The notes beneath the pieces are model-generated. The model was not told the DNA's origin, did no database searches, and was given only the letters and a program-made list of their open reading frames with translations. Position numbers and translations under genes: made by a program. Below, piece after piece: positions 23,450 through 44,305 of a stretch of DNA of 64,000 nucleotides. How positions within the stretch are numbered: position 1 is the stretch's first letter; every line of letters begins with the position of its first letter. The DNA is from Steinernema hermaphroditum (taxonomy: Eukaryota > Nematoda > Chromadorea > Rhabditida > Steinernematidae): assembly GCA_030435675.1 (NCBI GenBank), contig CM059623.1:13734092-13798091 (forward strand). Reading direction: 5' to 3'.

Positions 23450-23621
23450 TTTCACAGATTTAGTAGAAGATACAGAAGCGTGAGTTGCTTGCTTTTACTC
23501 ATTACAAATTCGAATAAATACGAACACAGCTACAGACAGACATGAATGAATCGGTTCTTCTGCGAGAGATGAAGGGGTGCTTGAAGAAAGGAACTTCTGG
23601 TACTGCTTGACTGTCCACAAT

Positions 23622-23768
23622 TTAGGAGTTTCCTCCTTCGCCGCCTCCACCGCCGCCACCGCCTCCACCGCCTCCACCGTTGTCTTTCGGTTCATTAGTC
23701 AATGGGGCACAGCCATATGCCGCAGCGGCCAGGACGACGAGAAGAAACCAAAGCGACAGGAACCTCAT
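23622..23768 (-). CDS. Secreted poly-glycine peptide a (P1 left), 48 aa
   Basis: A one-exon gene. Signal peptide MRFLSLWFLLVVLAAAAYG, then one Cys (residue 20), a short linker APLTNEPKDN, 13 consecutive Gly, and EGGNS. The start is the ATG about 45 bp below a TATAAAAG box (23810-23817, minus strand). I know no characterised family with this sequence. Small Gly-rich secreted peptides in nematodes include antimicrobial and cuticle peptides, so a defence role is possible but unproven. It is divergent from gene b, with which it shares the promoter region. Type A coding and type A promoter. Confidence 0.75.
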   Translation of the reverse strand: MRFLSLWFLLVVLAAAAYGCAPLTNEPKDNGGGGGGGGGGGGGEGGNS

Positions 23769-23809
23769 GATCACTGAGGAAGCTGATACCTTGCTCTGCC
23801 GAGAAGGCT

Positions 23810-24148
23810 CTTTTATATCCAAAAAATGGGTCAAATGCAACGTGAGGATACTAGTTTTTGACGTCGTTTAGGAACCACATGCGTTGTTTCCGACGATTAA
23901 ATTTGCTTTGCCGCAGGAGATCGCGCAGCAAAGATCGAAGAAACAAAGGTTCCGATGGTATTCAGCAGGTAGTGAACGTTTTGTGCTCGGGAAGATCACG
24001 GACATTTAACCGTCAGAAACAATACGGGCGGTTTTTAACCGATCTCAAAAACCCGTTCACTCACGTTGCAACGGCGATCTCCCTACCCAATTCGAAGTCG
24101 AAGAACCCTTCGGTTCCGCAACATATGACCCATTTTTGGATATAAAAG
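23810..24148. promoter_or_regulatory. Bidirectional promoter of P1
   Basis: A TATAAAAG box faces each gene (23810-23817 minus; 24141-24148 plus). Each is preceded by CCATTTTTGGA-type sequence and conserved upstream blocks. The left half is type A (AACGTGAGGATAC, TTTTTGACGTCGTTTAGG); the right half is type B (AACCCTTCGGTTCCGCAAC). The halves are distant homologues in inverted orientation. Confidence 0.7.
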
Positions 24149-24189
24149 AGCCTTCTCGGCAGAGCAAGGTATCAGCTTCCTCAGTGATC

Positions 24190-24300
24190 ATGAGGTTCCT
24201 GTCGCTTTGGTTTCTTCTCGTCGTCCTGGTGGCTACGGCATATGGATGTGCCCCAATGATTAATGGACCGAAAGACAACGGTGGAGGCGGTGGAGGTGGA

Positions 24301-24344
<44 letters not shown>

Positions 24345-24360
24345 AGGAGGAAACCCCTAA
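24190..24360 (+). CDS. Secreted poly-glycine peptide b (P1 right), 56 aa
   Basis: Signal peptide MRFLSLWFLLVVLVATAYG, Cys20, linker APMINGPKDN, 21 Gly, EGGNP. This is coding type B (VATAYG...PMING) under a type B promoter. The start is 42 bp below the TATA box at 24141. The stop is followed by a UTR-like region, well conserved in all palindromes, with AATAAA-poor but AT-rich sequence. The homopolymer is encoded mostly by GGC, so length variation by slippage is expected. Confidence 0.75.
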
Positions 24361-24548
24361 ATTGTGGACAGTCAAGCAGTACCAGCAGCTCCTTTCTTCA
24401 AGCACCCCTTCGTCTCTCGAAGAAGAACCGATTCATTCATGTCTGTATAGCTATGTTCGTATTTATTCGAATTTGTAATGAGTAAAAGCAAGCAAATCAC
24501 GCTCTTCTGTATCTTCTACAGTATACTGTGCACCACGGAAATATCCGT

Positions 24549-24683
24549 TTATCCATGAACAATGTCAACATGAGTAGCATCAACTATCAAACGACGAACA
24601 GTCACTTGTTGTCCTTTCGGCATCTCGCACACAGCGAAAATCTCCACGCTGCATATGGCGTTTACCCACTGTTCCTCGGATTG
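24549..24683 (-). pseudogene. Inverted duplicate of the last exon of lectin gene CTL-2
   Basis: On the minus strand this reads QSEEQWVNAICSVEIFAVC and on to DATHVDIVHG and a stop, nearly identical to exon 4 of CTL-2 (27442-27576). Part of the preceding intron is also copied (homology to about 24711). There are no other lectin exons beside it, so it cannot make a lectin. It lies between the right end of P1 and unrelated sequence. Confidence 0.9.
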
Positions 24684-24711
24684 CTATAACCGATTTAATT
24701 TTACTGCTTAC

Positions 24712-26460
24712 CTCAAAGAGAGCGAGTGCACTGACCGATCGCTGGGAGCACAAATGAAAGACCCGACAAGATTGGTACTCACAAAATAGGCTCGACCGGA
24801 ATCACCTTGGGAAGCCCGCGTGTACTGTTAGGATGGCTACATTCTACCCCAATAACACACACTGTGCCGAAAATTGAGGAAGACCAGCCAAAAAATTGTC
24901 ATATTTGCTATCTTTTGCGCCATAACAATAATTTTAACTTTTGTGACAGGTGTAATGCGTTATTTGGCCTCGCCAAATCTGAATCCAACGAACTGCGCAA
25001 TTTGACCCATTCTGGAGAAGAAGGACTGTCAAGGACGCCAACCCACCATATACTCCCCGAAAAGAACACTAGAGCCAGGCTAGGAAGAAACAAGCCTAGA
25101 AACCCCTGTGTGCCTCGAACTAATTGTCAAGAAACGTTTTCAAGCCTGCATCAATGCTTGAAGAGGCCACTTCGGGTTATATCCACGCTGTATGTGTGTA
25201 CTTTTGCGCACTGAATAACGTAGTGTTGCTCGTTTTCCGATAAACATGCGTTTTGTTCCAAAAATCATCGCTTTTTTGTGTTGCAGAACTTTCTGAACGT
25301 ATTGCCTTTTATAAACTGAAAAATGCACTTGATGTGACATCTCGCCAGGAATACATGTCGTGTGTAACAAATATAAATTTTAAATATCGACAGTCGCCAC
25401 AGACACAAATGGAAAACTCCTGCACTAACTGAAGCAAATATAATGTGTTTATACCCGACAAAGCATCATTTAACAGCTAGTCGAAAAGAACGACTTTACC
25501 GATCGGAACCGGCACAATCTGACGCAAAAGACCGACACAAATCGTAGTCTTATTCAGCTGACCCCCTTGCAAACACAAATTGTTGACAAGCGAGTCTATC
25601 GGCGGTACGCAGTGATAGGTGGTCGCGAGTAGATGCTGGTTTTTGATCAAAAAAACTCGTGTCAGATGACTGAGGCTACAAAGTGGTCCGCGACAGATCG
25701 ACGCGGATAAGATGTTGGTCGTCGATCTTATTCTTCAAATTAACCGTAAAGACTAGCAGTTTCTTGATAAGGAATTACCTTTAAACAAATTAACACAAGC
25801 GAACACAACTGCAATCTATTTGCACAAATCGCAGCTTCATTCGGTTGACCCCATTTTTGAACACAAATTTTGGGTACACATCTCGGTACGGTTTTTGTCT
25901 TCGTGCTCTATTGCTTCTCGTCCGAACATTTCCCATTTGCAATAGGATCTGCGGCAGAAGTGGGCGTCCCACGAATCGAAAACTGACGGTGACTCTGTCT
26001 TGGATCATCGCTGTTTGTCATTTGGAAGCGATGATTCTTTTTGCCCGCCGAAAAGTGCCGATCTGAATTTGGATTATTCCATTTGAGGCATCCTTTAGAG
26101 AAAGGTCTATTTGTATTATTTCACGCTCTCTGAAAGTTCCATACCCGAGGAGCGCGGGGCGAATTGTTGCAGAGGATCTGTGCGACCATGGTCAAGCACT
26201 TCACGAGATGTTTAGAAGCCTACACTGTACCGGAGCGTGGCCATTCCAAAGACCACATAGTATTCTTCTAGTCGAATGTAGAAGAAGCAAAAATGTAGGT
26301 TCTTTATGAATTCTATGGTTGTTTATTTGATCACGCTGTGACTTCTTGTGGCTAGCACAAAAGTGCGGAATCGATTGCCATCAGAGTTTCGAAGATGATT
26401 CATTTTTGCATGCCGACTGCCACGGTCTGGGCGGAACTGAACTCTGATACTTTCCCCTTT
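24712..26460. other. Long intergenic region
   Basis: No firm gene. A frame at 24807-25214 contains CHICYLLRHNNNFNFCDRC (CxxC-x12-CxxC), which looks like a zinc ribbon, but nothing else supports it. Two related ~60-bp blocks with ACACAAAT and (C/G)TTGACCCC motifs occur at about 25538-25600 and 25821-25882. Another frame near 26150-26290 (AEDLCDHGQALHEMFRSLHC) is also unexplained. Confidence 0.3.
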
Positions 26461-26464
26461 GCAC

Positions 26465-26513
26465 CTTATCTCCTTCTATGCTGCTCTCAATCGATAACAC
26501 CAGGCACATAAAA
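26465..26513 (+). promoter_or_regulatory. GATA site and TATA-like box of lectin gene 2
   Basis: CTTATC (GATAAG reversed) at 26465-26470, CGATAA at 26492-26497, and ACATAAAAG at 26506-26513 or so, 30-80 bp above the CTL-2 ATG. Confidence 0.45.
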
Positions 26514-26546
26514 GTACTTTCCCTCTTTCCCCTTCAATTTGCAGTC

Positions 26547-27576
26547 ATGCGAGTGGTTTTGGTCCTAGTCAGCTTGCTCCTTCCTCTTGTCCTCTCCAGG
26601 CACCTTTGCGACAAGGGCTGTGGGCCCAATTCTTTCCTCACCAAATCGCACAAATGCATTCGCTACTATAACCAGACGACTGACAACTACGATAAGGCCG
26701 TTGAGCAATGTTTCGCTCTGAACTTTGGTTCGTTGCCATCAGTTCACAACAAGGCAGACAACGAAAAACTGAGAAGTGAGTTGAAGTCATGGATTGCCAT
26801 GAAACATTCGTCGATTCAGAGCTGGCTTCTGGTAGTCCTCTTCTTCTCGGAGCTCGAGATCTTTTTGCCAATGGCACATGGTCCTGGGACGATTTGACGC
26901 GTTGGGACTACACCAACTGGGCTGCTGGAGAGCCTAACAACCTGCAGAATAATAACTGCATTCTCATGGACGCAATCACTGGATTATGGGCTGCCGTCGA
27001 CTGTGGCACCAAAACGCACGCTTTGGCCTGCATTTCACCTTTCCCAGGTAACTTAATGTTCTTGATTGTTCACATACGACGGGATTCCTTTAGGATCCAA
27101 GAATTCCAGCACCGCACAAACTTGCTCGGGAAACTACTGTTACTGCGTATCTGACGAAGAGCTTTCATGGGATCTGTCTCAAGACTACTGCCAACAAAGG
27201 GGAGGTCAACTGGCCTCTCTCCACAGCGACGACGACGTGAAGTTTGTCGGCAAGGTTTCTGAAATGGAAGGCTTTTGGATTGGCGGACAACTGCACGAAA
27301 ACAACAAGCTCTACTGGTCCGACGGCTCGCCGACTGACTTCACCAAATTCGCGCCTGGACTTCCAGATGCTTACTATGGATACTGCGTTCAGGTACGAGT
27401 ATGCTTAGTTTTGGTAAGCAGCAAAATTAAATCGGTTATAGCAATCCGAGGGACAGTGGGTAAACGCCATATGCAGCGTAGAGATTTTCGCTGTGTGCGA
27501 GATGCCGAAAGGACAACAAGTGACTGTTCGTCGTTTGATAGTTGATGCTACTCATGTTGACATTGTTCATGGATAA
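26547..27576 (+). CDS. Secreted C-type lectin with two CTLDs (CTL-2), 296 aa
   Basis: Exons: 26547-26775, 26820-27047, 27094-27392, 27442-27576 (phases 1, 1, 0). Signal peptide MRVVLVLVSLLLPLVLSR. CTLD1 carries LLLGARDLFANGTWSWDDL and GEPN; CTLD2 carries FWIGGQL, LYWSDGSPTDF and a final CEMP. The first intron-exon junction of CTLD1 is weaker than in the paralogues (SGSPLLLGARD), but the phases close. The C terminus is longer than in its neighbours and ends DATHVDIVHG. Its last exon was copied in inverted orientation to 24549-24683. Palindrome P2 starts 18 bp after the stop. Confidence 0.9.
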
Positions 27577-27751
27577 ACGGATATTTCCGTGGTGTATACT
27601 GTAGAAGATACAGAAGGACGTGATTTGCTTGCTTTTACTCATTACAAATTCGAATAAATACGAACACAGACATGAATGAATCGGTTCATCTGCGAGAGAC
27701 GAAGGGGTGCTTGAAGAAAGGAGCTGCTGGTACTGCTTGACTGTCCACAAT

Positions 27752-27919
27752 TTAGGGGTTTCCTCCTTCGCCGCCTCCACCACCGCCACCGCCGCCTCCG
27801 CCGCCGCCGCCACCTCCGCCGCCTCCACCGTTGTCTTTTGGTCCATTAGTCAATGGGGCACAGCCATATGCCGCAGCGGCCAGGACGACGAGAAGAAACC
27901 AAAGCGACAGGAACCTCAT
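27752..27919 (-). CDS. Secreted poly-glycine peptide c (P2 left), 55 aa
   Basis: Signal peptide ending AAAAYG, Cys20, linker APLTNGPKDN, 20 Gly, EGGNP. Type A coding and type A promoter (minus-strand TATA just after 27955). Same structure and same uncertainty of function as gene a; it differs from a in the linker (NG for NE) and the last residue. Confidence 0.75.
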   Translation of the reverse strand: MRFLSLWFLLVVLAAAAYGCAPLTNGPKDNGGGGGGGGGGGGGGGGGGGGEGGNP

Positions 27920-28349
27920 GACCACTGAGGAAGCTGATACCTTGCTCTGCCGAGAAGGCTCTTTTATATCCAAAAATGGGTCATACACAACGTGAGGATA
28001 CGAGTTTTTGACGTCGTTTAGGAACCACACGCATTGTTTCCGACGATTAAATTTGCTTCGCCACAGGAGATCGCACAGCGAAGATCGAAGAAACAAAGGT
28101 TCCGACGGTATTCAGCAGTTAGTGAACCTTTCAAAGAACGTTTTGTGCTCGGGAAGATCACGGACATCTAATCGTCGGAAACAATACGGGCGGTTTTTAA
28201 CCGATCTCAAAAACCCGTTTAGTCGTTCCAACGGCGATTCCTTTACCCATTTTGAGATCGAAGAACCCTTCGGTTCCGCAACATATGACCCATTTTTGGA
28301 TATAAAAGAGCCTTCTGGGCAGAGCAAGGTATCAGCTTCCTCAGTGGTC

Positions 28350-28514
28350 ATGAGGTTCCTGTCGCTTTGGTTTCTTCTCGTCGTCCTGGTGGCTACGGCA
28401 TATGGATGTGCCCCAATGATTAATGGACCGAAAGACAACGGTGGAGGCGGTGGAGGTGGAGGCGGCGGCGGCGGCGGTGGCGGCGGCGGCGGCGGCGAAG
28501 GAGGAAACCCCTAA
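28350..28514 (+). CDS. Secreted poly-glycine peptide d (P2 right), 54 aa
   Basis: Signal peptide ending VATAYG, Cys20, linker APMINGPKDN, 19 Gly, EGGNP. Type B coding and type B promoter (GGATATAAAAGAGCC about 45 bp above the ATG). Nearly identical to gene b apart from the length of the Gly run. Confidence 0.75.
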   Translation: MRFLSLWFLLVVLVATAYGCAPMINGPKDNGGGGGGGGGGGGGGGGGGGEGGNP

Positions 28515-28792
28515 ATTGTGGACAGTCAAGCAGTACCAGCAGCTCCTTTCTTCAAGCACCCCTTCGTCTCTCGCAGAAGAACCGATTCATTCATGTCTGT
28601 ATAGCTATGTTCGTATTTATTCGAATTTGTAATGAGTAAAAGCAAGCAAATCACGTCCTTCTGTATCTTCTACAGTATACTGTGAAGTCTGTGGAATCAG
28701 TTGTGGTAAAGGTTCTCAAATGGTTCTTTCCATTCACTAAGAGAGCACTCGGCAGTGTAGGTGGTAGGATTGGTCAACCGCGCTGCTTTTCA

Positions 28793-28916
28793 TTGGAAAT
28801 TCGAATTTCCACGATTTCCTGGTTGTGCAAGTGGCGATGAACCGCTTTGAAGTTTCAAATCGCCCTAAACAGCTAAAAAAGCAAGTGAACCTATCATTAC
28901 TGGACGCACTGTAGTA
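28793..28916 (-). mobile_element. MITE-like fragment, inverted partner of 31015-31150
   Basis: On the minus strand it begins TACAGTGCGTCCAGTAATGA, continues with GGTTCAC(T)TGC, and then a segment alignable to 31017 onward for about 100 bp. The two copies point away from each other. A third, shorter match (CCGTCCAGTAATGATTGGG) is at 47240. The ends look like those of Tc1/mariner-type elements. Confidence 0.55.
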
Positions 28917-29067
28917 TCGTGAATACTGTTACACATTTTAAAATTGCATTTTCTGTGGAATTTTTGCCTCCTTTGACCTGTTTTTCGTGCGTTGATCGTG
29001 GTCTTCACGTTACTTATTGCTGTAATGCCATTTACTCTGATATTTTCTGCTATTCTCTAGAAAGAAA

Positions 29068-29930
29068 ATGGTATCAATGGAAGGCCGTTCGACCATCGTC
29101 GCACTGCACCAACGTGGATCGTCGAATTCGGTCATCTCAAAGGCGCTCAAACTTCACCGAATGCAGACCCATCGTGTCTTGAAACGGTTTCAGAAGACCG
29201 ATGGAATCAAGGACCATCAGCAAAGAGAGAAACCCCGAACAGGAAAAAACGCAAGAGCTGAATTTGGCCGTCAGGAAGAAAATGAATCGGTATTTGATGG
29301 TAGAGCACAAAATTGGGGACGGAATCATGCAACGGCTCGGAAATGAAAACCTAGGACAAGACCTCAAGTCTGCTAAAGGAAAGCTCCTCACGGGCAACAT
29401 TAACGCCTCCAGGTTGGACAAATGTCGGAATATGAAGAGGCTGAACCGCGGTGGAGCCTTGAACCCCATTCTGTTCGCCGATGAAGCGATTTTTAACGTC
29501 GAATCCCTCTGAAACCCCGAACTGTTACAGAAAGATTCCTTGCAAAACTAGGCTCCTTTTCACACCAAATGGCGCGAAGGTCAACGCGAAAATTTTTCAT
29601 GAGCTAATTTTTTCTTGACATCGTGATTCTCCGCACATTGGCCAATTCAATAAACTTTGAGTGGAGGCACCAGCAGGACTGGGCCCTTACCTATGGCGCG
29701 AAAAAAGTTTTGAACTCCTGTGAGACCACCTACCCCGGCCTTCTGGGGCAAGGACTGCCAAGGATGTTTGGCCCTCAAACTCGCCCGATCTGAACTTCCT
29801 GAATGTCAGTGTTCGAGCGACGAGAGTCGACTCTTTCAAGCACAAGTGGACTCGCTCAAATGCGCTCTGAAGGAAGCTTGAACAGAAATTACTCAAGAAG
29901 ACAATGCGGCTATTTTAAAGAATTTTCGGT
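29068..29930 (+). pseudogene. Tc1/mariner-family transposase pseudogene
   Basis: The N-terminal paired-type helix-turn-helix is clear: GRSTIVALHQRGSSNSVISK, then THRVLKRFQKTDGIKDHQ. After a frameshift at about 29210-29270 the frame continues with VRKKMNR, MQRLGNENLGQDLKSAKGKL, ASRLDKCRNMKRL and ILFADEAIFNVES, the region around the second catalytic-core strand. Stops follow, with further matches in scattered frames (WRHQQDWALTYGAKK; LSSTSGLAQM). It cannot make an active enzyme. It lies between palindromes P2 and P3. Confidence 0.85.
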
Positions 29931-30118
29931 AGCGTTTTGACATCTGCATTGCGGGGATACTGTAGAAGATACAGAAGCGTGATTTGCTTGCTTTTACTCA
30001 TAACAAATTCGAATAAATACGAACATAGCTATACAGACATGAATGAATCGGTTCTTCTTCGAGAGACGAAGGGGTGCTTGAAGAAAGGAGCTGCTGGCAC
30101 TGCTTGACTGTCCACAAT

Positions 30119-30283
30119 TTAGGGGTTTCCTCCTTCGCCGCCTCCACCGCCGCCACCGCCTCCACCGCCGCCTCCACCTCCACCGCCTCCACCGTTGTCT
30201 TTCGGTCCATTAGTCAATGGGGCACAGCCATATGCCGCAGCGGCCAGGACGACGAGAAGAAACCAAAGCGACAGGAACCTCAT
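30119..30283 (-). CDS. Secreted poly-glycine peptide e (P3 left), 54 aa
   Basis: Signal peptide ending AAAAYG, Cys20, linker APLTNGPKDN, 19 Gly, EGGNP. Type A coding placed under a type B promoter, unlike genes a and c. The TATA box is intact (CTTTTATA on the plus strand at about 30325). Function unknown, as for the other copies. Confidence 0.75.
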   Translation of the reverse strand: MRFLSLWFLLVVLAAAAYGCAPLTNGPKDNGGGGGGGGGGGGGGGGGGGEGGNP

Positions 30284-30691
30284 GACCACTGAGGAAGCTG
30301 ATACCTCGCTTTCCCGAGAGAGCTCTTTTATATCCAAAAATGGGTCATATGTTGCGGAACCGAAAGGGTCTTCGACTTCGAATTGGGTAGGGAGATCGCC
30401 GTTGCAACGTGAGTGAACGGGTTTTTGAGATCGGTTAAAAACCGCCCGTATTGTTTCTGACGGTTAAATGTCCGTGATCTTCCCGAACGCAAAACGTTCT
30501 TTGAAAGGTTCACTAACTGCTGAATACCGTCGGAACCTTTGTTTCTTCGATCTTCACAATTCTCATCGTCGGAAACAACGCGTGTGGTTCCTAAACGACG
30601 TTAAAACTAGTATCCTCACGTTGCATATGACCCATTTTTGGATATAAAAGAGCCTTCTCGGCAGAGCAAGGTATCAGCTTCCTCAGTGGTC

Positions 30692-30862
30692 ATGAGGTTC
30701 CTGTCGCTTTGGTTTCTTCTCGTCGTCCTGGTGGCTACGGCATATGGATGTGCCCCAATGATTAATGGACCGAAAGACAACGGTGGAGGCGGTGGAGGTG
30801 AAGGTGGTGGCGGCGGCGGCGGTGGCGGCGGTGGCGGCGGCGGCGAAGGAGGAAATCCGTAA
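30692..30862 (+). CDS. Secreted poly-glycine peptide f (P3 right), 56 aa
   Basis: Signal peptide ending VATAYG, Cys20, linker APMINGPKDN, a Gly run of 21 broken by one Glu, and EGGNP. Type B coding under a type A promoter, the reverse of genes b and d. TATAAAAG lies about 45 bp above the ATG. Confidence 0.75.
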   Translation: MRFLSLWFLLVVLVATAYGCAPMINGPKDNGGGGGGEGGGGGGGGGGGGGGEGGNP

Positions 30863-31014
30863 ATTGTGGACAGTCAAGCAGTACCAGCAGCTTCTTTCTT
30901 CAATCACCCCTTCATCTCTCGCAGAAGAACCGATTCATTCATGTCTGTATAGCTATGATCGTATTCATTCGAGTAATGAGTAAAAGCAAGGGAATTACGC
31001 CCTTCTGTATCTTC

Positions 31015-31150
31015 TACAGTATACTACAATGCGCCCAGTAATGATGGGTTCATCTGCTTTTGCAGCCGTTAAGGGCGATTCGAAATTTCAACGCGGCTCA
31101 TCGTCTATCGCGCAACCAGAAAACCGTGTCTTCCAACATGATAACAGAAC
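31015..31150 (+). mobile_element. MITE-like fragment
   Basis: Begins TACTACAATGCGCCCAGTAA directly at the right end of P3, then GGGTTCATCTGC, GGGCGATTCGAAATTTCAA and GCGCAACCAGAAAACCGTG. It aligns with the reverse complement of 28793-28916. Confidence 0.55.
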
Positions 31151-31803: not shown

Positions 31804-33702
31804 TCACTTCTTCTTGAAGTTTCGTCTCGGGAGCTCGCAGATGGCCCAGAACACCTGATCGCAATGGTAGGTGCTCCATTGCATGTCATCCGTAGATTGC
31901 TAAATTCGTAATTTTGGTAGGCCTACCTATAACAATAAAACTTACGAAGACACAATTGCCGTAACCTTTCATCGGGTTTGAACGCTCCCAATTCTGGAAA
32001 TCGACCTTGGAACCGTCGGTCCAGGAGAGCGTCAGGTTACTGTCCACTTTACCGCCGATCCAGAAGGGGCCACCACCGGCCGACGCCATGATCGGTTCCA
32101 TGAGTCTGATGTCTTCCTTGCTGTGGATAGAAGCCAGATGGCCACCACCCATCAGGCAGTATTGTTCGGCGATGTCCCATGTGGCCAGGTTTGTTGCTTC
32201 ATAGCAGTACTCTCCCCAGCATTCAACTGGAGGAGGCTGAGCATTGGGCACTGAAATCGTTGAACGATTCAGAGGTGTTTGAATCTGATCACTCGCGTTA
32301 CCCTATGTCTGTGCCAGGTTTGGGCTCGATCAGAGACAGGCACGCTGAAGCATGCAGTCAAAAGATTCTGATCTTCGGATAGTCAAGCCAAGCTCAAGAC
32401 AGAAGACACAACGTTCACAGATTTTAGCCTGAATCGAAATTTTCCTCAATTTCTGTAGTCACAAGGAGAGATGCCAAACTATTCCACACTGGCAAGGAGG
32501 TTGACATATCAGAGTGTAGCAAAACCTGATAGGTTCCATCGGTGAATGACCTCACAAAAGCCCAAAGAAAAGGTAAAAAAACTGATAAGACCTCCGTATC
32601 TTTTGTGCCATCAGGGACACCGTGCTAGGACTCCTTCGGCGTGGAACAATTTGAGAGCTGTCCTTGTCAGATTCTTCGGTCTTATGCGGTATTTTGGAAT
32701 TACAACTGTTAAGGATCTTGAATAAGAAGGCTCTCAGTTCTTTGTGTTCGTTGTTGTTTCCAATTGAATTCCAGTCATTAACACAAGCAAGGAATCCGAA
32801 TAAAATGCATAATCGAAAATGGCAACCAAGACATATCCGGCACCCAAAGTATTGTTACTTTTAAACGGTGTTTACATGGTCTATGCCTACCTCCGTGCCA
32901 ATTTTCACCTCGATTTCATACGGACACTTCGGAATATTTCTTTGTCAGACCAAGCTGTCCCATCTAGGCAGTATACACGAATATATACGAATTGAAGGCT
33001 TGAAAAATTCCAGAAACTTTTAGATTTAAAAAGAGCTCTACGACTCGACCTTCTGAAATTCTTCGCTTTACCAGCGCTGTGCGGCGTTGCGTTCAATGAG
33101 GAATAAACGCGGCTTCGCACCCTCTAGTACTAAAAGCCAAGTAGCCTTGCGGGCGGCACGACACCAATGCACCAATGTATTCAGGAATTGCAATCATCCG
33201 GCATCAACTTACAGGTGAACGGAGTGTAACAGGCATAGCCATGCTGCTTTGAATTGCAGTCCGCAGCAGACCACAGCATCGTGAGAGGGTCATAGAGAAG
33301 ACAGTCATCGCCATTCTTGTTGCTGGGCTGTCCAGCCGCCCACTGGCTGTAGTCAAAGGGTGTCCCATCTAGCCAGCTCCATGTGCCGTTGTTGAAGACG
33401 TCGCGTCCGCCGATCCAGTACGGGCCATTGTTCCATTCTAAAGATAGAAAGAAAATTGTGCATGTAGATGGCTGAGATGTCAACTTACGGGCGAGGATTA
33501 CGTTCGTGAGGTCACCGTGATCGGAAGTGAGATTGCCTTTCCGACTGGCACAGAACTTCTGGGCCGCATCGAAAGTGACAGAATCATTGTAATAGTTTAG
33601 ACATCGGCTGTCGTCATCGAGAAGGACGCCGTTGCTGCCACACCATTGCTGACACAGAAGGCACGGTAGAAGGATCGAGAAGAACAGGAGAGACAACTTC
33701 AT
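31804..33702 (-). CDS. Secreted C-type lectin with two CTLDs (CTL-3), 279 aa
   Basis: Minus-strand exons in order: 33702-33489, 33437-33213, 32250-31946, 31899-31804 (phases 1, 1, 0). Signal peptide MKLSLLFFSILLPCLLCQ. CTLD1 has YWIGGRDVFNNGTWSW and QPS where others have EPN; CTLD2 has FWIGGKV and LSWTDGSKVDF and ends CELPRRNFKKK. CTLD2 closely resembles that of CTL-6 (PPPVECWGEYC; CELPRRN). It is the only lectin in the cluster on this strand. The 962-bp intron 2 is unusually long and contains a dispersed-element fragment. The upstream TGATAAAAG (plus 33742-33750) combines a GATA site with a TATA-like box. Confidence 0.9.
33102..33172 (-). mobile_element. Fragment E of the dispersed element, in CTL-3 intron 2
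   Basis: The plus strand reads AATAAACGCGGCTTCGCACC, then TACTAAAAGCCAAGTAGCC and GCGGGCGGCA, the reverse complement of the right end of copies A and D. The hairpin is shortened. Confidence 0.6.
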
Positions 33703-33741
33703 GACTGAAGAGTTAAAGTGGAAAGTGCCCTTTGTGCTGCT

Positions 33742-33998: not shown

Positions 33999-34022
33999 TG
34001 ATAAAAGAGCTCCTCATAAAAG
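33999..34022 (+). promoter_or_regulatory. GATA site and TATA-like box of CTL-4
   Basis: TGATAAAAG at 33999-34007 and CATAAAAG at 34015-34022, 36-58 bp above the ATG at 34058. Confidence 0.45.
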
Positions 34023-34057
34023 CGCCCGTTTGTGCCGCTCTCTGATCAGTCCCAACC

Positions 34058-34800
34058 ATGCGCATTCTTCTCGTCCTATTCGCCTCTCTTGTCGCCGTCT
34101 TGTTCGCCGATGACCAATGCAACACCGGTTTCCTCTCCAACGGCGACGATCCGACCGACAACACCTGGTTCTGCGTCAGGCACTACAACATCACCGCCAA
34201 CTACCCGGACGCGAAGAAGTTCTGTGAAAGCCAAGGAGCCACGATGGTGTCGGTGCACAGGAAGATCCAAGACGAGTCTTTGACGAGTGAGTTGTGAAGA
34301 ATGGAGCATAACAAATCTATTGTTTTAGTCTTCGATCAGTACCCGACATTTTGGATCGGAGGTCGAGACGTTTACAACAACGGCACTTGGTCGTGGGAAG
34401 ACGGAACGAAGTGGGATTACAGTAGTTGGGCAGCTGGAGCACCCTACAAGGGTCTTGGCTGGGATTGCATTATGGTTGACCCGTACACAGGCCTGTGGCA
34501 GAACTACAACTGCGACAATCACAAGGGTGGTGTGTGTTGTAGCACTCCGTACCATTGTAAGTGTCTCCATGGTTAAATCCATGATTGTTTGGCTTTTTTT
34601 AGAGACTCCAAAGCTTCGTACAAGCCATAGTGAAGATTTTACCACATTATGCGATTGCTATTTTATGTTTCTTGAGTGCCTGAAGGTTTGAGATAAATCC
34701 AATAGAAACATCATTTATGACACTGCAGTCTAAGAGTTGGACCGACATGGGATGTCTCCTTTCGGAGACGCCGATCCAGTGAAATTTAGCAATCCGATCT
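34058..34800 (+). CDS. C-type lectin reduced to one CTLD (CTL-4)
   Basis: Exons 34058-34286 and 34329-34556 encode a signal peptide (MRILLVLFASLVAVLFA) and a full CTLD1 (FWIGGRDVYNNGTWSWEDG; GAPY in place of EPN). The second CTLD is missing. After exon 2 (phase 1) the next acceptor (34601 region) gives an immediate TAG, and a relic of exon 4 (KSWTDMGCLLSETPIQ, about 34727-34790) has no exon 3 before it. Joining exon 2 to that relic gives a stop as well. The product would be a single-domain lectin of about 150 aa. The coding sequence probably ends near 34560-34610; the end given includes the exon 4 relic. Confidence 0.75.
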
Positions 34801-35131
34801 GACTCAGTTGGCCAGAACTCCGACGTCTGCGCCACCAGCCGATGATGGATCTATTCGGTATGCCAAGCCTCAACCCGTGCCAGTTCCTCATGTCACATCT
34901 TGATGGGATCGTTGTCTTCTGCTCACACGTGCCCTGTGCCAGAGAAAGAAGAAGGCCAATGACTACAGTGCGCTGTTTGATCTTTCTTTCGTGCCATAAT
35001 AAGTGACTTGCTCAAGGAGTACATTCGGTCAACGTAGCCCATCGCCATTAGAGAAAGTCGTTAGAACACCAGCTTTACTGATGTCCCACATATAACCAAA
35101 TCCGACTCAATGGTGAACAGCACGCAAAGCA
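34801..35131. other. Intergenic
   Basis: Nothing recognisable between the CTL-4 relic and palindrome P4. Confidence 0.3.
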
Positions 35132-35271
35132 AAGGACGTGATTTAGTTGCTCTTACTCATAAAAGATGAATACGAACACAACTATACAGACATCAATGAA
35201 TCGGTTCTTGTGCGAGAGATGAAGGGGTGCTTGAAGAAAGGAGCTGCTGGTACTGCTTGACTGTCCACAAT

Positions 35272-35289
35272 TTAGGGGTTTCCTCCTTC

Positions 35290-35320
<31 letters not shown>

Positions 35321-35436
35321 CCGCCTCCACCTCCACCGCCTCCACCGTTGTCTTTCGGTCCATTAGTCAATGGGGCACAGCCATATGCCGCAGCGGCCAG
35401 GACGACGAGAAGAAACCAAAGCGACAGGAACCTCAT
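35272..35436 (-). CDS. Secreted poly-glycine peptide g (P4 left), 54 aa
   Basis: Signal peptide ending AAAAYG, Cys20, linker APLTNGPKDN, 19 Gly, EGGNP. Type A coding under a type B promoter (GTTGCGGAACCGAAGGG upstream on the plus strand). Its mature sequence equals that of gene e. Confidence 0.75.
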
Positions 35437-35867
35437 GATCACTGAGGAAGCTGATACCTTGCTCTGCCGAGAAGGTTCTTTTATATCCAAAAAATGGGTC
35501 ATATGTTGCGGAACCGAAGGGTTCTTCGATCTCAAAATGGGTAAAGGAATCGCCGTTGGAATGAGTAAACGGGTTTTTGAGATCGGTTAAAAACCGGCCA
35601 TATTGTTTCTGACGATTAGATGTCCGTGATCTTCCCGAGCACAAAACGTTGTTTGAAAGGTTCACTAACTGCTGAATACCATCGGAACCTTTGTTTCTTC
35701 GATCTTCGCTGCGCGATCTCCTGCGGCAAAGCAAATTTAATCGTCGGAAACAATGCGTGTGGTTCCTAAACGACGTCAAAAACTCGTATCCTCACGTTGT
35801 GTATGACCCATTTTTGGATATAAAAGAGCTCTCTCGGCAGAGCAAGGTATCAGCTTCCCCAGTGGTT

Positions 35868-36011
35868 ATGAGGTTCCTGTCGCTTTGGTTTCTTCTCGTC
35901 GTCCTGGCCGCTGCGGCATATGGATGTGCCCCATTGACTAATGGACCAAAAGACAACGGTGGAGGCGGCGGTGGCGGCGGTGGCGGAGGCGGCGAAGGAG
36001 GAAACCCCTAA
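35868..36011 (+). CDS. Secreted poly-glycine peptide h (P4 right), 47 aa
   Basis: Signal peptide ending AAAAYG, Cys20, linker APLTNGPKDN, only 12 Gly, EGGNP. Type A coding under a type A promoter (CTCGTATCCTCACG); in P1-P3 the right-hand gene is type B. The shortest of the intact copies. Confidence 0.75.
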   Translation: MRFLSLWFLLVVLAAAAYGCAPLTNGPKDNGGGGGGGGGGGGEGGNP

Positions 36012-36158
36012 ACTGTGGACAGTCAACCAGTACCAGCAGCTCCTTTCTTCAAGCAGCCCTTCATCTCTCGGAGAAGAACCGATTCATTTATGGCTGTATA
36101 GTTGTGTTCGTATTTATTCGAGTTTATAATGAGTAAAAGCAAGCAAATCACACCCTTC

Positions 36159-36719
36159 GTGCGTCTTTATATTCACTGGAGAAACTTTCGCCAAAGTTTA
36201 CCTCAATGTAACCCCGAATTCTAACGCAATTTCGTAGAATTTCCATCGGGTGTCGTGTTCGATCAAAACAGAACTACATGTAATACTTCAAGAGAAATCA
36301 AATATCCGTCTATCCACGAATAATGTCAACATATGTTGCCATTCTGTTCCACTGTGCCTACATCTCCTACATCTTGTTGGCCTCCGTCTTGAACTTAAAT
36401 AATGGCCATATTCCACGCGAACTTCCACTTTCTGTTTGTAGCTGCCTTGCAAGTCACTGAAGCCGGTTGTAGTTGTTCAAGCCAACCGTAGTTCTGATGA
36501 AACCAGGAACGCAAGAGCTAATACATATACTATGTATCTTACTCTTGAGTGAGAAGCGCAGTAATTTTAGTGACATGAGCTTATTATCAATCACTACATG
36601 CTTCACTTCATCATCACTAAAGTCGCAGCCATCATCGATCGGGATGTGTGGCTCTGGTCAACTGATAACAGCAGACTAATCGAAATTTTTACCTTCCTGG
36701 CAGTCCGTCATTTGCAACC
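36159..36719 (+). promoter_or_regulatory. Intergenic and promoter of CTL-5
   Basis: No gene. ACTGATAAC (GATA core 36663-36668) lies about 52 bp above the CTL-5 ATG. No clear TATA box. Confidence 0.4.
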
Positions 36720-38193
36720 ATGCGTCTACTTCTCTTCTTCTTCGTCTCCTTCATATCGACCTCTTTTTGCCAACTGGAATGTGGTGAAGACGGATTCCTC
36801 TCGAATGGCGACGATCCTACGGATAGAACGTGGCACTGCGTCAACTACTATGGAGTCTCGGTCGACTTCGACGGGGCCAAGGATTTCTGCGAGAAGAAAG
36901 GAGCGAAGATGGCTTCGATTCACTCGAAGTATCAGAATGGAAATTTGCTGAGTAAGTGATTGTGACAAGTTTACACAAATCAGATCTCTTAAGCATTCGG
37001 AAAAGTTCAGTTCTGGATCGGAGGTCGAGACGTATACAACAACGGCACTTGGACATGGGTCGATGGAACACGCTTCGATTTCAGCAGCTGGGGAGCTGGA
37101 GAACCCAACAACATGTTCGGACACGACTGTCTCATGGTTGATCCGTACAGTTCGCTATGGTCAGCCAATGACTGCACTACGAGAAGAGCTGCAGTGGCCT
37201 GCATGGCGCCGTTTTCGTGTAAGTGGAACTTTTGAAGACATATATAGTCAAGGGATTGTCGTGACCGGGAGCACCTCATGTTATCTAGTTCACTTCCGGT
37301 GTTATGTTGTCCCCAAGTTACACAAGGCATGCCTGCGGACGCGATTTTGGCTAATGGGGTCACGTATCCAAAAGTGCTTTAAAAAGAGGCTAGAAAGACT
37401 GTATATACCAGTCACCTGCAATAGCACAGCTCCAATATCACTCGACGACTGATTGATTGATTCTGCGGTCCCGTGGTGTAGCGGTTAGCACTCAGGACTC
37501 TGAATCCTGCGACCCGAGTTCAAATCTCGGCGGGACCTAATATTTTTCTGTTTACTCAGTTAGTTTCTTTTGGTTTATTTGGCAATCTTAACGATCATCT
37601 TTTCTTGGAGAGTTCTTCGGCGGTAATTTTCAAATAAAAAAAATTCACGATCCAAAGGCATTTCGCCTATCAAGGCACTCGTTGAAATGTGTATGGTTTA
37701 AAAGCCAGTTTACAGTCCCATCAACTACATCGGCCACAACTACCGCACCTCCTTCCACATCTTGTTCCAACACCTCCTGCTACACTCTATCCGACGGACC
37801 TTTCTTCCAATGGCAGTACGCCGAGAACTTCTGCAAGACCATCGGAGGACATCTAGCCTCAGTCCATAGCGTCAGTGAAGCCAAGATCATAGCAGAGCTT
37901 GCTACCCGTCAGTCTGCTGACACTTTTTGGCTAGGAGGCACTGTTGATAAGAACAACACTGTTCACTGGCTAGATGGATCGCCAAGCGACTTCGACAACT
38001 TCTCTCACCCATCGTTCCCTAACTACAAGGCTGGAGGATGTGTTATCGTAAGGAACACTAGAAATAGACTTTGTTCATTGAGAACTTTTAGCAAGACACG
38101 ACTTCGGAGAAGTGGATGAACACCAATTGCAACAAGCTCTCATATGCCTTGTGCGCCGTTCCGAAAAGGAAAAAGAAGTTAACGAACTTTTAA
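36720..38193 (+). CDS. Secreted C-type lectin with two CTLDs (CTL-5), 296 aa
   Basis: Exons: 36720-36951, 36994-37218, 37716-38047, 38092-38193 (phases 1, 1, 0). Signal peptide MRLLLFFFVSFISTSFCQ. CTLD1 has FWIGGRDVYNNGTWTW and GEPN with a nearby WSANDC, the closest to an intact calcium site in the cluster. CTLD2 starts after a Thr/Ser-rich linker (STTSATTTAPPST) and has FWLGGTV and VHWLDGSPSDF. The C terminus is basic (PKRKKKLTNF). The 497-bp intron 2 contains a complete tRNA-Gln gene on the same strand. Confidence 0.92.
37467..37538 (+). tRNA. tRNA-Gln (CTG), inside CTL-5 intron 2
   Basis: A cloverleaf of 72 nt: acceptor stem GGTCCCG/CGGGACC with discriminator T, anticodon loop ACTCTGAAT (anticodon CTG), and T arm with GTTCAAATC. 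No intron and no encoded CCA. An identical-looking copy is at 55388-55459. Confidence 0.95.
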
Positions 38194-39162
38194 GAACTTT
38201 TAATTCGTGTTAGGATAAAATTTGTCACAACGTCAATCACAAATCTATACGAAGATTGTATCTCAAACTCATTCACGAATCTGTTATCGTTAGATTCATA
38301 TCGAATTTACGAGTTTTTAGTTTTGGATCATCGGCTTATACACTACAAGGATACAAGGAATCATATAGAGAAAAGAAAAAGGCACATCATAGGCACTGCG
38401 TCTCCTCTGGTTTCACAGGAGAAGCAGTGCGGCGAAGAGGCCGGATTCCGGTTGATGCGCTGTGGTAGGGTACAACGAACGGAACGAAGACCCATCTGCG
38501 GTTTCAATGGCGGCGCAGACTTTGACATTTTGATATTTCAGTTTGAGAACGTCTTATTGGCGCGACCTTGGAATTATGACTCCCTGAACTGAGCCTGTTA
38601 CTGTTCGGACGGTCAGGAAGGACTGTTCACTCAGCTCATTTCTGAGAGAGCGATCGGACCGATCGCCACTGATGAATGAATCACAAATGAATCAAATCGG
38701 ACTATAGTTCATTTCTGCCACTTCTCATATTTGACCTTCATTTGGTCGTGCTTATCAATTTTGCGCATGTGCATGGTACATGCTGACCAAAAAACAAAAT
38801 TATATGCCGAGACACCAAAGTGACACGGTCTCCAACCTCGATGTTCAGCCGTTTCCTTTCACTTCAGGCGTTCAAACACTCTCTGATAAGCTAGCACATG
38901 CCTGCAGTCGGCGTAAAGGTTTATAGCCTTCTGCACCTGTTAATTATCGAACGGCATCACATAGTACGCTTGATCAGCATGACAGGTGAAGCTGTCCTAA
39001 AAATGCAGTCTTGCGATATCTCGCTTTTTGACCGCTTTATCTGTGATAACGTCAATTTTGAAAATTTTGCAGATTTATAGTAGTAGTAGCTGAACATTGT
39101 TTTGTTAGGATACTTTAATCTCCAAGGCCCCAATGTGCATTCCACTCTGATGTATGCTCCGC
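38194..39162. other. Intergenic between CTL-5 and CTL-6
   Basis: No convincing gene. Nothing repeated elsewhere in the window was noticed. Confidence 0.35.
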
Positions 39163-39185
39163 TGATAAACCATCGCCTATAAAAG
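39163..39185 (+). promoter_or_regulatory. GATA site and TATA box of CTL-6
   Basis: TGATAA at 39163-39168 and TATAAAAG at 39178-39185, about 30 bp above the ATG at 39216. This is the clearest core promoter among the lectin genes. Confidence 0.55.
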
Positions 39186-39215
39186 TGGTCTTTCCGTCAG
39201 TGACAGGCTGCGACC

Positions 39216-40451
39216 ATGCGTGTGCTCACCTTCCTCTTCTCCTCTCTCATACCCACCTTCTTGTGTCAACTGTGGTGCGGGAAAAACGGCTTCCAAACCT
39301 TCGCCGACGGCAACGACAACAAGTACCGCTGCGTGAATTACTACAACGTTTCTCTCGATTTCAATGGAGGCAAGGAATTCTGCGCTAAGAAAGGAGCCAA
39401 GTTGGCGTCTATCCATTCAAAAGATGACAATGATGTGCTAGGAAGTAAGCTGAAACATTACCCGTTACTTTCATGAATAACCCATTTAGTGTTCACGTTC
39501 CAGGGCGGTGCCTACTGGCTCGGAGGTCAAGACGCGAACAACAACGGCACATGGACGTGGCAGGACGGCTCGCACTTCGATTACAGTAACTGGGCAGCTG
39601 GACAGCCAAGCACCGAGAGTGGAAAGAACTGTCTGGAGGTGGACCCTATTTCGGAGCTGTGGTCCGCCACCGATTGCAGTGAGAAGAGAGCGGTTACATG
39701 CATCAAGCCCTTAGTCTGTAAGTAGCGAGAAAGCAAGTCGGGGGTGGCTGCTTGGAGTATCGAAGAGTGGCTAAGTTGAGCGATCAAAGAGTGAGGTCAA
39801 GACTTGTGATGAGTCAAGTGATCATAGTGCAATCGAAAGCACCTGGCGTATGTTGGATCTGGATCTGACACTGGATTTAAGCTGTAATATTTGGCTTCCG
39901 AAAGTAAGCGCTCATAGCACAAAAGCCGGGTCAAAAGACTTAAAGGTTACTGCAGTTGGCTCTAAGAAAGCAGCTCACCATTAGTTTTGATATCCCTTAT
40001 GTCCTTCCATCTAGACCCGGACGCGCAACCTCCTCCAATCGAGTGCTGGGGCGAATACTGCTATCAATTCCTCGATGGCATTGCCGCTTGGGACATCGCC
40101 GCACAGACCTGCAAGATGAAGGGTGGCAACCTGGCGTCAATCCATAGCGCGAAGGATCAACGACTCATGGAGCCGATTGCGACGTCCAACGGCATCGATA
40201 GCTACTGGATCGGCGGACAAGTGAACGTGAACAACACTCTCAGCTGGATCGATGGGTCGAAGGTGAACTACAGTAATTATCTAAGCGACTGGCCAATGTA
40301 TTCGTTGGGACGTTGCCTTTGTGTAAGTGTGGATTTCTGTGATTTTTCTGATCGTTCCGTTCAGATGGACGGAGCTTCTCAGCAATGGATCACCGATCAT
40401 TGCGACGTGAAGTTGTTCGCTTTGTGCGAGCTGCCGAGAAGAAATGACTAG
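39216..40451 (+). CDS. Secreted C-type lectin with two CTLDs (CTL-6), 283 aa
   Basis: Exons: 39216-39444, 39490-39717, 40015-40322, 40365-40451 (phases 1, 1, 0). Signal peptide MRVLTFLFSSLIPTFLCQ. CTLD1 has YWLGGQDANNNGTWTWQDG and GQPS, not EPN. CTLD2 has PPPIECWGEYCYQF, YWIGGQVNVNNTLSW and the end CELPRRND, and is most like CTL-3. It closes the cluster; a dispersed element (copy D) begins 44 bp after the stop. Confidence 0.92.
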
Positions 40452-40494
40452 TTCACTGTTGTGTCTATGGCAATTTGCTTTAAACCCTTACAAA

Positions 40495-41730
40495 TCCCCT
40501 ATATAAACGGAGAACCGACGGGTCCGTTGGTCTGTGTGTGTATGTGTTTTTCCGTGAGCATGGAGAAAACACCCACGCAAAATAATGATCAACCAAATGC
40601 CCCATCTGTCGTGACTTCCAGTATCACGTCGGATGGCTTCCATCCACTCCCCAAGGCCGCAGACCATGGTATTTACCCGGCAGGCCTCACTCCTGGGAAT
40701 CTGTTGAGTGAAACACTTCTGCCTACCGGGACATCACGATATGCTGTCGTGCATCCTCCCAACTCGCGTAAAACGCTAGCTGAGGTTGCGCGCCTCCACC
40801 AGTGGAATCGTGCCTTCCGGGGAGCCGCAATCCACATCCTCCGGCCTAGCCCTCGTGTCAAGAATGACCGATTCATCATTGTGACCGTTTGCACCTACAC
40901 CCTTGCAATAAAGGTCGATGAGGTAGCTCTGGACTCGATCGCCGAGTTCGAGACCACCCTCCGCGAGCATTATGGCCACCGTGACGAAATTTATGTCGAC
41001 AATACAGCCCCGTTCGAGTTGAGAAACCTCGACGACAGTCACGGTCCCTTTCGATTCACCACAATAAATTTTCATGTGGGACCTTCGTCATCTGGCGCTT
41101 GCTATGATTATCAAAGCCCCCTTACGGTGGACTCTATCTTTTCGGACTTCGCGCGAGTCCTTGAACAGATCTATCGCTCGCGCAGCGCAGCGTCCTCATG
41201 CGCTCTATCGTGGATTTCGAGCATTGCAGCCACGCACAATCACAGTCCACATACGGACTTGTGTGGCTACTTCCCTGTTCAAGCCCTAGCAGCTGTAGCT
41301 CGTAGCCAGCATTCCTGATTCTTGAGTGGATTCCCCTCACCAAAAAAAAACAAAAGCTACACCAATGCACGCACGCCTTCTCGGCCTCTCGTGCGCACAT
41401 CCTGATTATCGGGACGATAATCCCATAAGGTGGGTATTGTACGGTACAGTCATAGGGTCCCCTATATCAAAAATCTCTTAAAATCCGTAGTGGAGAGGAG
41501 AAACCCAAACAGAAGGGAACAGCTCCACTCTCAAGCTCGCGAGAAGAACGCGGCGGCTGACCGGTCAGAGGGAAGGAGCAAAAGCGGGCCGCGCGTGCGC
41601 TCACGGCTTAGTTTGGATTCAGCTTCAGCTCAATTTAACAGAGAGGTGTCCTGTTCTCTGGCGTCTTGCCGCCCGCAAGGCTACTTGGCTTTCAGGACCT
41701 AGAGGAACGAATTTGCTCTGAGCGTTTATT
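40495..41730 (+). mobile_element. Dispersed element, copy D, with internal ORF
   Basis: The left end TCCCCTATATAAACGGAG and the following ACGGGTCCGTTGGTCTG match copies A and C. The right end (CCGCCCGC, GGCTACTTGGCTTTCAGGAC, then GCGTTTATT) matches their hairpin side. At 1.24 kb it is about three times longer than copy A because it holds a 252-codon ORF and about 340 bp more. The right end touches palindrome P5, which has lost its own outer end. Confidence 0.65.
40560..41318 (+). CDS. Unknown ORF carried by the dispersed element, 252 aa
   Basis: An uninterrupted frame from MEKTPTQNNDQPNAPSVV to a stop at 41316-41318. The first codons lie in element sequence shared with copies A and C; the rest is unique in the window. 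The protein has no signal peptide or membrane segment. Its middle has a hydrophobic, strand-like part (FIIVTVCTYTLAI) and its C terminus is Ala/Ser-rich. I recognise no transposase, reverse transcriptase or Rep/helicase motif. It may be a captured host fragment or an accessory protein of the element family. Confidence 0.45.
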   Translation: MEKTPTQNNDQPNAPSVVTSSITSDGFHPLPKAADHGIYPAGLTPGNLLSETLLPTGTSRYAVVHPPNSRKTLAEVARLHQWNRAFRGAAIHILRPSPRVKNDRFIIVTVCTYTLAIKVDEVALDSIAEFETTLREHYGHRDEIYVDNTAPFELRNLDDSHGPFRFTTINFHVGPSSSGACYDYQSPLTVDSIFSDFARVLEQIYRSRSAASSCALSWISSIAATHNHSPHTDLCGYFPVQALAAVARSQHS

Positions 41731-41731
41731 T

Positions 41732-42506
41732 AAAATACGAACACATAACTATACAAACATGCACAAATCAGTTTTTGTCCGATAGAGGAAGGAGTGCTTG
41801 AAGAAAAGAACTGCTGGCACTGCTTGGTTGCCCACAAATTTAGGGGACTCCTCCGCCACCGCCTTCAGTGCCGCCGCCGCCACCGCCTCCAGCGCTTCCA
41901 CCGCCGCCTCCACCTCCGCCGCCTCCACCGCCACCGCCTCCAGCGCCTCCACCGCCACCGCCTCCAGCGCCGCCACCGCCACCGCCTCCAGCGCCGCCAC
42001 CGCCACCGCCTCCAGCGCCGCCACCGCCACCGCCTCCACCTCCGCCGCCTCCACCGTTGTTTTTCGGTTCGTTAGTCAATGGAGTACAGCCGTATGCCAC
42101 AGCGGCCAGGACGAGGAGAAGGAACCAAAGCGATAGGAACTTCATGATGACCGAGGAAGCTGATACCTTGCTCTGTTGAGAGAGTTCTTTTATATCCAAA
42201 AAAAAGTCATATGTTGCGGAGCCGAAGGGTTTTTTGGCTCAAGATGGGCAAACAGATCGCCGTTGCAAGATCAATTAAAAAACAAGCATTGTTTCTCACG
42301 ATTTGATGGGCGTGTTTTTACGTGGACTGAAACGCTGAGACCGACTCGCGATTCGAACGCGGCGATAGCGGCATCGAGAATTTTTTAATTTGTGGACAGC
42401 CTTTCTTTAAGCACCCCTTCATCTCTCGCAGAAGAACCGATTCATTCATGTCTGTATAGTTCTGTTCGTAGTTATTATAAATACTTGTATTCGCTACAGT
42501 ATACTA
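41732..42506. repeat. Palindromic cassette P5, one arm deleted
   Basis: The left arm has gene i (minus). The right arm keeps only the 3' UTR (CAGCCTTTCTTTAAGCACCC at about 42400, AGAAGAACCGATTCATTCAT, TACAGTATACT at 42496-42506). The right-hand coding region and promoter half are gone. The spacer next to gene i is B-type (GTTGCGGAGCCGAAGGG). Confidence 0.75.
41840..42145 (-). CDS. Secreted Gly/Ala-rich peptide i (P5), 101 aa
   Basis: Signal peptide MKFLSLWFLLLVLAAVAYG, Cys20, linker TPLTNEPKNN, then a long Gly region broken by single Ala residues at about 8-residue intervals (four or more GGGGGGGA units), then SAGG and TEGG, ending GVP. It is about twice as long as the other copies. The changed Arg2 to Lys and linker make it the most diverged member. 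The TATA box (CTTTTATA on plus, about 42188) and spacing to the ATG are kept, so it is probably expressed. Confidence 0.7.
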   Translation of the reverse strand: MKFLSLWFLLLVLAAVAYGCTPLTNEPKNNGGGGGGGGGGGGGAGGGGGGGAGGGGGGGAGGGGGGGAGGGGGGGGGGGGGGGSAGGGGGGGTEGGGGGVP

Positions 42507-44298: not shown

Positions 44299-44305
44299 TT
44301 AATTT

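Follow-up and report, generated by a model that had tools for sequence, protein, structure and literature searches.

Two kinds of system described from nematodes frame the locus reported here. Glycine-rich secreted peptides (GRSPs) are delimited by a length of at most 200 aa, a putative signal peptide, more than 17% glycine in the mature part, and a C. elegans GRSP among the top five BLASTp hits, and the survey calls their common evolutionary origin not clear (PMC10506718). In C. elegans, C. briggsae, and C. remanei, divergent paralogous gene pairs lie in inverted repeats, and that report describes such pairs as tending to duplicate as an entity and proposes gene conversion (Zhao et al. 2007, PMC1803023). 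Here, we analyze a 64,000-nt stretch of contig C3 of the 90.6-Mb genome of Steinernema hermaphroditum (the window; G+C 46.7%), in which genes for short polyglycine peptides are arranged mostly in mirror-image cassettes. These genes probably form a recently expanded small family, intron-less and TATA-driven, whose predicted products are new, unusually pure poly-Gly secreted peptides of the GRSP type.

Nine ATG-to-stop open reading frames (ORFs) for peptides of 47–101 aa occupy positions 23461–42506, all intact and at the places given by a first-pass annotation of this DNA. Each begins with a leader of the form M(R/K)FLSLWFLL(V/L)VL..(A/T/V)AYG, followed by C(A/T)P(LT/MI), a short linker, and a glycine run; the mature part would start with CAPLT or CAPMI (CTPLT in the gene P5L) and holds a single Cys. 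Eight of the nine form four head-to-head pairs, P1–P4, in palindromes of ~1.03–1.08 kb whose arms are complementary at 91–93% across 191–222 nt, far above chance, with start codons 408–431 bp apart. The annotation had described five such palindromes with runs of 12–21 Gly and an EGGNP ending. The arrangement is borne out for P1–P4, but only the left gene of P5 is intact; the run length fits the eight P1–P4 tracts (one P3R codon being Glu), but P5L has 63 codons, 56 of them Gly, with Ala, Ser, and Thr interruptions; and P1L and P5L end otherwise (Table 1). An alternative 76-aa ORF at P4L begins upstream of the TATA box, and the product is likely the 54-aa frame as in its siblings. Because the arms differ by 7–9% over ungapped stretches and also in tract length, we rejected an assembly foldback artefact as the source of the palindromes.

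The family extends beyond the window. Genome-wide, the first 40 residues of P4R had 12 matches at E values of up to 10, every one of them on contig C3: the nine window genes and three more, each an intact ORF with the same leader. Q1L and Q1R form a further head-to-head palindrome ~0.58 Mb from the window (locus L060; 86.5% over 3481–5042), and S1 is a single gene ~0.9 Mb from the window (locus L061). Each of the three encodes 43 aa, consisting of the family leader, CAPLT, and the tail ADAPKKDATTPAPATGGKR, which is built of Ala, Pro, and Lys rather than a glycine run. Both genes are present in five of the seven gene-bearing units (P1–P4 and Q1), where the spacers measure 408–474 bp. On this contig, too, a gene-less relic outside the window (L062) retains spacer-side and 3'-UTR pieces and no family ORF, an additional 3'-UTR remnant lies at 5078–5246 of L060, and no family copies were found on other contigs across the 90.6 Mb searched. 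Searches of a protein collection with the poly-Gly and Ala/Pro peptides gave no match; since a lectin-bearing ORF of 474 aa from this genome likewise gave none (E 0.001, 7986 scored candidates), the collection is probably uninformative for this organism. Flanking the Q1 palindrome itself are two short ORFs, related to each other and secreted-looking, that share a CDDFxxFVC motif (L060, 1148–1456 and 5855–6169) and presumably resemble M13 peptidase N-termini; the two pieces of them that were tried had no Pfam match.

All 12 genes share a 19-bp core promoter, TTTTTGGATATAAAAGAGC, with no mismatch at 10 of them and one mismatch at two. At 0–1 mismatches this sequence is absent elsewhere in the genome, and four further matches carry two mismatches, a total equaled by the reversed control (3 forward and 1 reverse). 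As the adjoining spacer sequence of the P genes and the Q and S genes is merely 62–86% alike, the core stands out. In all nine window genes the TATA box begins 49 nt upstream of the start codon, with no ATG in between, in agreement with the conserved TATA boxes noted at first pass.

The two kinds of tail also share their ends. The codons before and including the stop are alike (GGC GGA AAA CGC TAA in the Ala/Pro tails, GGA GGA AAC CCC TAA in the poly-Gly genes), as is the following GTGGACAG, and from this likeness we infer that the glycine run probably expanded at a site flanked by a PKD-like linker and an ancestral GG. The three Ala/Pro tails, strictly conserved, all close with GGKR, a possible amidation or dibasic processing signal. 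The family might on that account be peptide-hormone-like, with processed Ala/Pro tails and the poly-Gly genes as derived side branches, and several C. elegans neuropeptide-like proteins are indeed classed as GRSPs (PMC10506718). However, none of the nine poly-Gly genes has a dibasic site at its end, which reads NP, NS, or VP, and we consider a hormone-like family improbable.

The first-pass annotation had taken conservation of the leader as evidence of selection, which our estimates do not bear out. Across the 24 leader codons (seven distinct sequences), the 21 pairwise ratios of nonsynonymous to synonymous change (dN/dS, omega) ranged from 0 to 1.55, one being undefined for zero synonymous change, and maximum-likelihood (ML) omega on three assumed trees was 0.70, 0.76, and 0.56, not different from 1 (p 0.46, 0.57, and 0.23); leader dN/dS was accordingly rejected as proof of selection. 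Among the leaders of Q1L, Q1R, and S1, all three variable codons alter the amino acid. The signal of constraint is instead found, at the level of sequence, in the mature part. Within the first eight tract codons of the eight P1–P4 genes, five of eight third positions vary against one of 16 first and second positions (Fisher p 0.007, and 0.0001–0.0005 with more codons), in a column test that ignores phylogeny and gene conversion. Only one of 144 tract codons in P1–P4 is non-Gly. Across the three Ala/Pro tails (19 codons), all four changes are silent, 15.7 of 57 sites being synonymous, a pattern whose neutral chance, by arithmetic from site counts, is about 0.006. A coding function of the family is likely, with the signal of constraint in the mature part and not in the leader.

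The same tract could in principle have been kept as a G-quadruplex or arisen as a neutral slippage product, the peptide being incidental. A two-layer quadruplex would likewise conserve GGN with a free third base, and tract length does vary, from 12 to 21 codons with 63 in P5L. Against this, three paralogues that lack the G-tract keep an identical protein tail through synonymous changes alone; GGG, which would suit a quadruplex, accounts for 0 of 159 Gly codons after the linker in P1–P4 and 0 of 61 in P5L, compared with 3 of 44 in the lectin stretches of the window; and leader, stop codon, and promoter are retained. We give this explanation little credence.

The cassettes also record how they multiplied. 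Whole-cassette identity among P1–P4 is 91–96% in the better orientation. The promoter spacers differ in orientation: P1 and P2 match directly (93.1% versus 84.2% inverted), as do P3 and P4 (90.1% versus 81.9%), while P1 matches P3, and P2 matches P4, in inverted form (95.2% versus 79.1% direct, and 96.0% versus 81.5%). We then compared informative sites, defined as gap-free and two-state, each state being present in two or more copies. Upstream, 16 of 27 set P1L, P2L, P3R, and P4R against P3L, P4L, P1R, and P2R, whereas five of seven in the coding sequence set P1R, P2R, and P3R against the remaining arms; no coding site fits the upstream grouping and no upstream site fits the coding one. The switch falls in a near-identical stretch comprising the TATA box, the 5' UTR, and codons 1–13, as expected if the arms recombine there and flip the spacer. 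Promoter spacers that are inverted between P1/P2 and P3/P4, with leader types unmoved, indicate arm-to-arm exchange. By the alignment of their matched inverted flanks (Table 1), P1 and P2 are inverted segmental duplicates.

Foldback transposons and miniature inverted-repeat transposable elements (MITEs) are palindromic units with similar ends, and the cassettes resemble them in both respects. They could thus represent a mobile or selfish foldback transposon with inverted ends TACTGTAG...CTACAGTA and incidental small ORFs: TACTGTAG is present at eight of the 12 ends of P1–P5 and Q1 (P1R, P2L, P2R, P3L, P3R, P5R, Q1L, and Q1R), and AACTGTAG at the relic L062. The family differs, however, in being confined to one stretch. 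A DNA search with half of P1 gave at least 26 scored matches, all on contig C3 within 0.92 Mb (best candidates scored and common words skipped, so that counts are lower bounds), and the end motif, allowing up to three mismatches, occurs as often as its reversed control (8 and 11 for each), with five exact matches, all in the cluster. Homology runs past the ends between P1 and P2, around P3, around Q1, and between Q1 and S1, as expected of segmental duplication or of later duplication of an inserted element; read by eye for target sites, the flanks are duplicated or rearranged. The ~1-kb units are filled by two genes and a spacer, and no search aimed at a transposase was made. An ordinary genome-wide foldback repeat, the possibility raised at first pass, is rejected, as no palindrome copy lay on another contig among the matches scored and the end motif did not exceed its control, and a selfish element with incidental ORFs appears quite unlikely.

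C-type lectin domains flank the cassettes, and of the stretches rescanned as proteins five passed the Pfam cut-off (22451–22708, 31946–32185, 33226–33582, 37808–38056, and 40086–40430), whereas neither the 31-aa piece at 34196 nor the first exon of the gene at 26547–27576 reached it; that gene is termed lectin-like from its 59–63% DNA identity to other lectin genes. The annotation had palindromes and lectin genes alternating, which is correct as to lectin domains around the cassettes but not between P2 and P3, which are separated by a degraded Tc1/mariner-type transposon (transposase match to the Sleeping Beauty HTH, E 4e-6, below the Pfam cut-off). Two further features adjoin lectin sequence: a dispersed repeat (40455–40591, 50647–50785, and 16474–16574; copies 81–85% identical), one copy of which directly follows a lectin gene end, and a tRNA-Gln (37467–37538) between two lectin-domain stretches that has ~135 bp (81%) in common with 55362–55495.

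The link of the peptides to the lectins and their intestinal GATA sites, from which the first pass drew a defence or mucosal-matrix role, is weak. Six 300-bp windows upstream of lectin genes contain 12 WGATAR sites, with sites in all six, against 4.9 in shuffles (reached by 3 of 500); two windows overlap, so that one site is counted twice and 11 are distinct. By contrast, the five peptide-gene spacers (P1–P4 and Q1; 2164 bp) contain no site where 5.4 are expected (so low a count came up in 4 of 500 shuffles), and the 250 bp before P5L none and before S1 one, so that shared GATA regulation as a general rule was rejected. The nearest scored PF00059 matches on C3 lie 546 kb from Q1 and 229 kb from S1, in a scan that scored the best 150 of 257 candidates and did not have at least one lectin-like window gene among them, and a scan of six ORF pieces from L060 and L061 detected no lectin domain. 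As the spacers lack GATA sites and no scored lectin lies near the distant paralogues, the lectin neighborhood is likely incidental to the peptide family.

These data bear on whether the peptides are secreted antimicrobial or immune effectors working with the neighboring lectins in the gut. Copy expansion and loss are usual for antimicrobial peptide genes, and Drosophila immune-induced (DIM) peptides are short, secreted, and start with an MKFLS-like leader. The leaders here are weakly similar (residues 1–16 or 1–26 match PF08194), but at E 0.05–0.12 and 13.1–14.1 bits against a cut-off of 20.8 in all three proteins tried, and membership of DIM was rejected. The GRSP survey places these peptides with the putative antimicrobial peptides of nematodes and reports antibacterial and antifungal tests for C. 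elegans (PMC10506718), and the single site before S1 would also suit such a role. The spacers devoid of GATA sites and the distance of Q1 and S1 from scored lectins speak against it, as does composition: all nine mature poly-Gly peptides are 52–74% Gly counted from the Cys, with one Cys, no aromatic residue, and a charge of −1 or −2. An immune-effector function is conceivable but, in our judgment, doubtful.

The low charge argues for a matrix or coat role, and together with the lack of aromatic residues it makes a membrane-lytic one less likely. In our model of a GRSP-type family, the leader would be cleaved near the AYG–C junction, releasing a mature peptide of 28–37 residues (82 in P5L) that could pair via its one Cys, and within an extracellular layer such as gut lining, cuticle, or mucus, the glycine arm may be an element that is extended, self-associates, or acts as a spacer. 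The palindrome would serve as a copy-number and homogenizing device, with at least P1 and P2 arising by inverted segmental duplication and arms swapping pieces. A more speculative extension, to which we attach limited belief, is that one promoter-plus-leader module launches unrelated mature peptides: a GG-containing Ala/Pro tail would have become a nearly pure secreted polyglycine polymer by GGN codon expansion, the palindrome would keep the sequence-distinct A and B Cys variants together, possibly for disulfide heterodimers, and arm inversion would re-pair promoters with genes. Type A and type B leaders are paired in three of the four intact pairs P1–P4.

Several points weigh against the model of a secreted GRSP-type family. 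The putative signal peptide was judged by eye, from a hydrophobic leader of 19 residues with small residues at −3 and −1 and AYG before the Cys, and leader omega is indistinguishable from neutral. Besides the column test's neglect of phylogeny and conversion, its GGN pattern would be equally expected from a selected G-rich nucleic-acid structure or from slippage of a mixed GGT/GGA/GGC unit. Eight informative sites within 150 nt downstream of the genes group unclearly, the extracellular-layer role is drawn from composition, and the family is known here from the genes of one genome.

Table 1. Positions of the cassettes, genes, core promoters, and adjoining features of the peptide cluster (window coordinates).
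Feature	Position	Strand	Details
P1 left flank	23405..23461		57 bp, inverted copy of P2 right flank 28685-28741, 89%
Cassette P1	23463..24523		arms 23632-23825 / 24133-24326, 93% complementary
Gene P1L	23622..23768	-	48 aa, leader type A, 13-codon Gly tract, end EGGNS
P1L core promoter	23807..23825	-	0 mismatches
P1R core promoter	24133..24151	+	
Gene P1R	24190..24360	+	56 aa, leader type B, 21-codon Gly tract
P1 right flank	24531..24712		inverted copy of P2 left flank 27413-27594, 182 bp, 98%; copied 3' end of lectin-like gene 26547-27576
Cassette P2	27597..28680		arms 27764-27985 / 28284-28505, 91%
Gene P2L	27752..27919	-	55 aa, type A, 20-codon tract
P2L core promoter	27958..27976	-	
P2R core promoter	28293..28311	+	
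Gene P2R	28350..28514	+	54 aa, type B, 19-codon tract
P3 outer arms	28810-28917 / 31021-31128		palindrome extended, 106-108 bp, 81%
Degraded Tc1/mariner-type transposon	28918..29953	+	between P3 outer left arm and cassette; ends approximate
Cassette P3	29954..31022		arms 91% complementary
Gene P3L	30119..30283	-	54 aa, type A leader with P1R-like promoter spacer
P3L core promoter	30322..30340	-	
P3R core promoter	30635..30653	+	
Gene P3R	30692..30862	+	56 aa, type B; sole Gly-to-Glu codon among P1-P4 tracts
Cassette P4	35135..36165		arms 35303-35493 / 35811-36001, 91%
Gene P4L	35272..35436	-	54 aa, type A
P4L core promoter	35475..35493	-	1 mismatch
P4R core promoter	35811..35829	+	
Gene P4R	35868..36011	+	47 aa, type A (one synonymous change), 12-codon tract
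Cassette P5	41715..42506		decayed palindrome, right gene lost; 3'-UTR-like remnant 42400-42476
Gene P5L	41840..42145	-	101 aa, Gly/Ala tract 63 codons (56 Gly), end GGGGGVP
P5L core promoter	42184..42202	-	1 mismatch

Elsewhere in the window, a ~425-bp repeat occurs at 22983–23408 and 59557–59981 (78% identity), and a 116-aa frame at 23099–23446 has no Pfam match. A tRNA cluster at 49025–55459 holds five tRNA-Lys(CTT), one tRNA-Val, and one tRNA-Gln within 6.5 kb, and a self-complementary palindrome of ~280 bp (77%) lies at 44025–44304, outside the peptide cluster.

At this locus, how one group of glycine-rich secreted peptides arose can be traced through a shared leader and promoter, two kinds of tail, and P5L as a possible intermediate. 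It also displays exchange of arm segments within one locus, where promoter halves and coding parts differ in history. A secreted peptide made almost wholly of glycine and bearing one Cys would be unusual among natural building blocks of biomaterials.

NLP-31, a named GRSP example, carries aromatic YGGWG-type repeats. Like nematode GRSPs, the peptides here are short (47–101 aa for nine, 43 aa for three), have a hydrophobic leader, and form a multigene family, and nine of the 12 exceed the glycine threshold. They differ in being nearly pure glycine homopolymers with one Cys and no aromatics, and the three Ala/Pro-tail members, with 2 Gly in 24 residues, fall outside the glycine criterion. The cassettes resemble the Caenorhabditis inverted-repeat pairs as described in the accessible part of PMC1803023: head-to-head paralogues around a palindromic intergenic region of ~0.4 kb (446 bp for F44E5.4/F44E5.5; here P1–P4 and Q1), homogenized arms, gene ends free to diverge, and a pair duplicated as an entity (P1/P2). 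In contrast to what that part describes, the spacer and leader of one arm have separate histories here, and the spacer is inverted between cassettes. The first-pass view that no described family is like this one thus fails at the level of kind, both kinds being in print (PMC10506718 and PMC1803023), while our literature search returned neither a near-pure polyglycine family built like this one nor a single leader used for two such tails. Nematodes are already known to have peptides of this class and genes in mirror-image arrangement, and it is the combination of the two that looks new.

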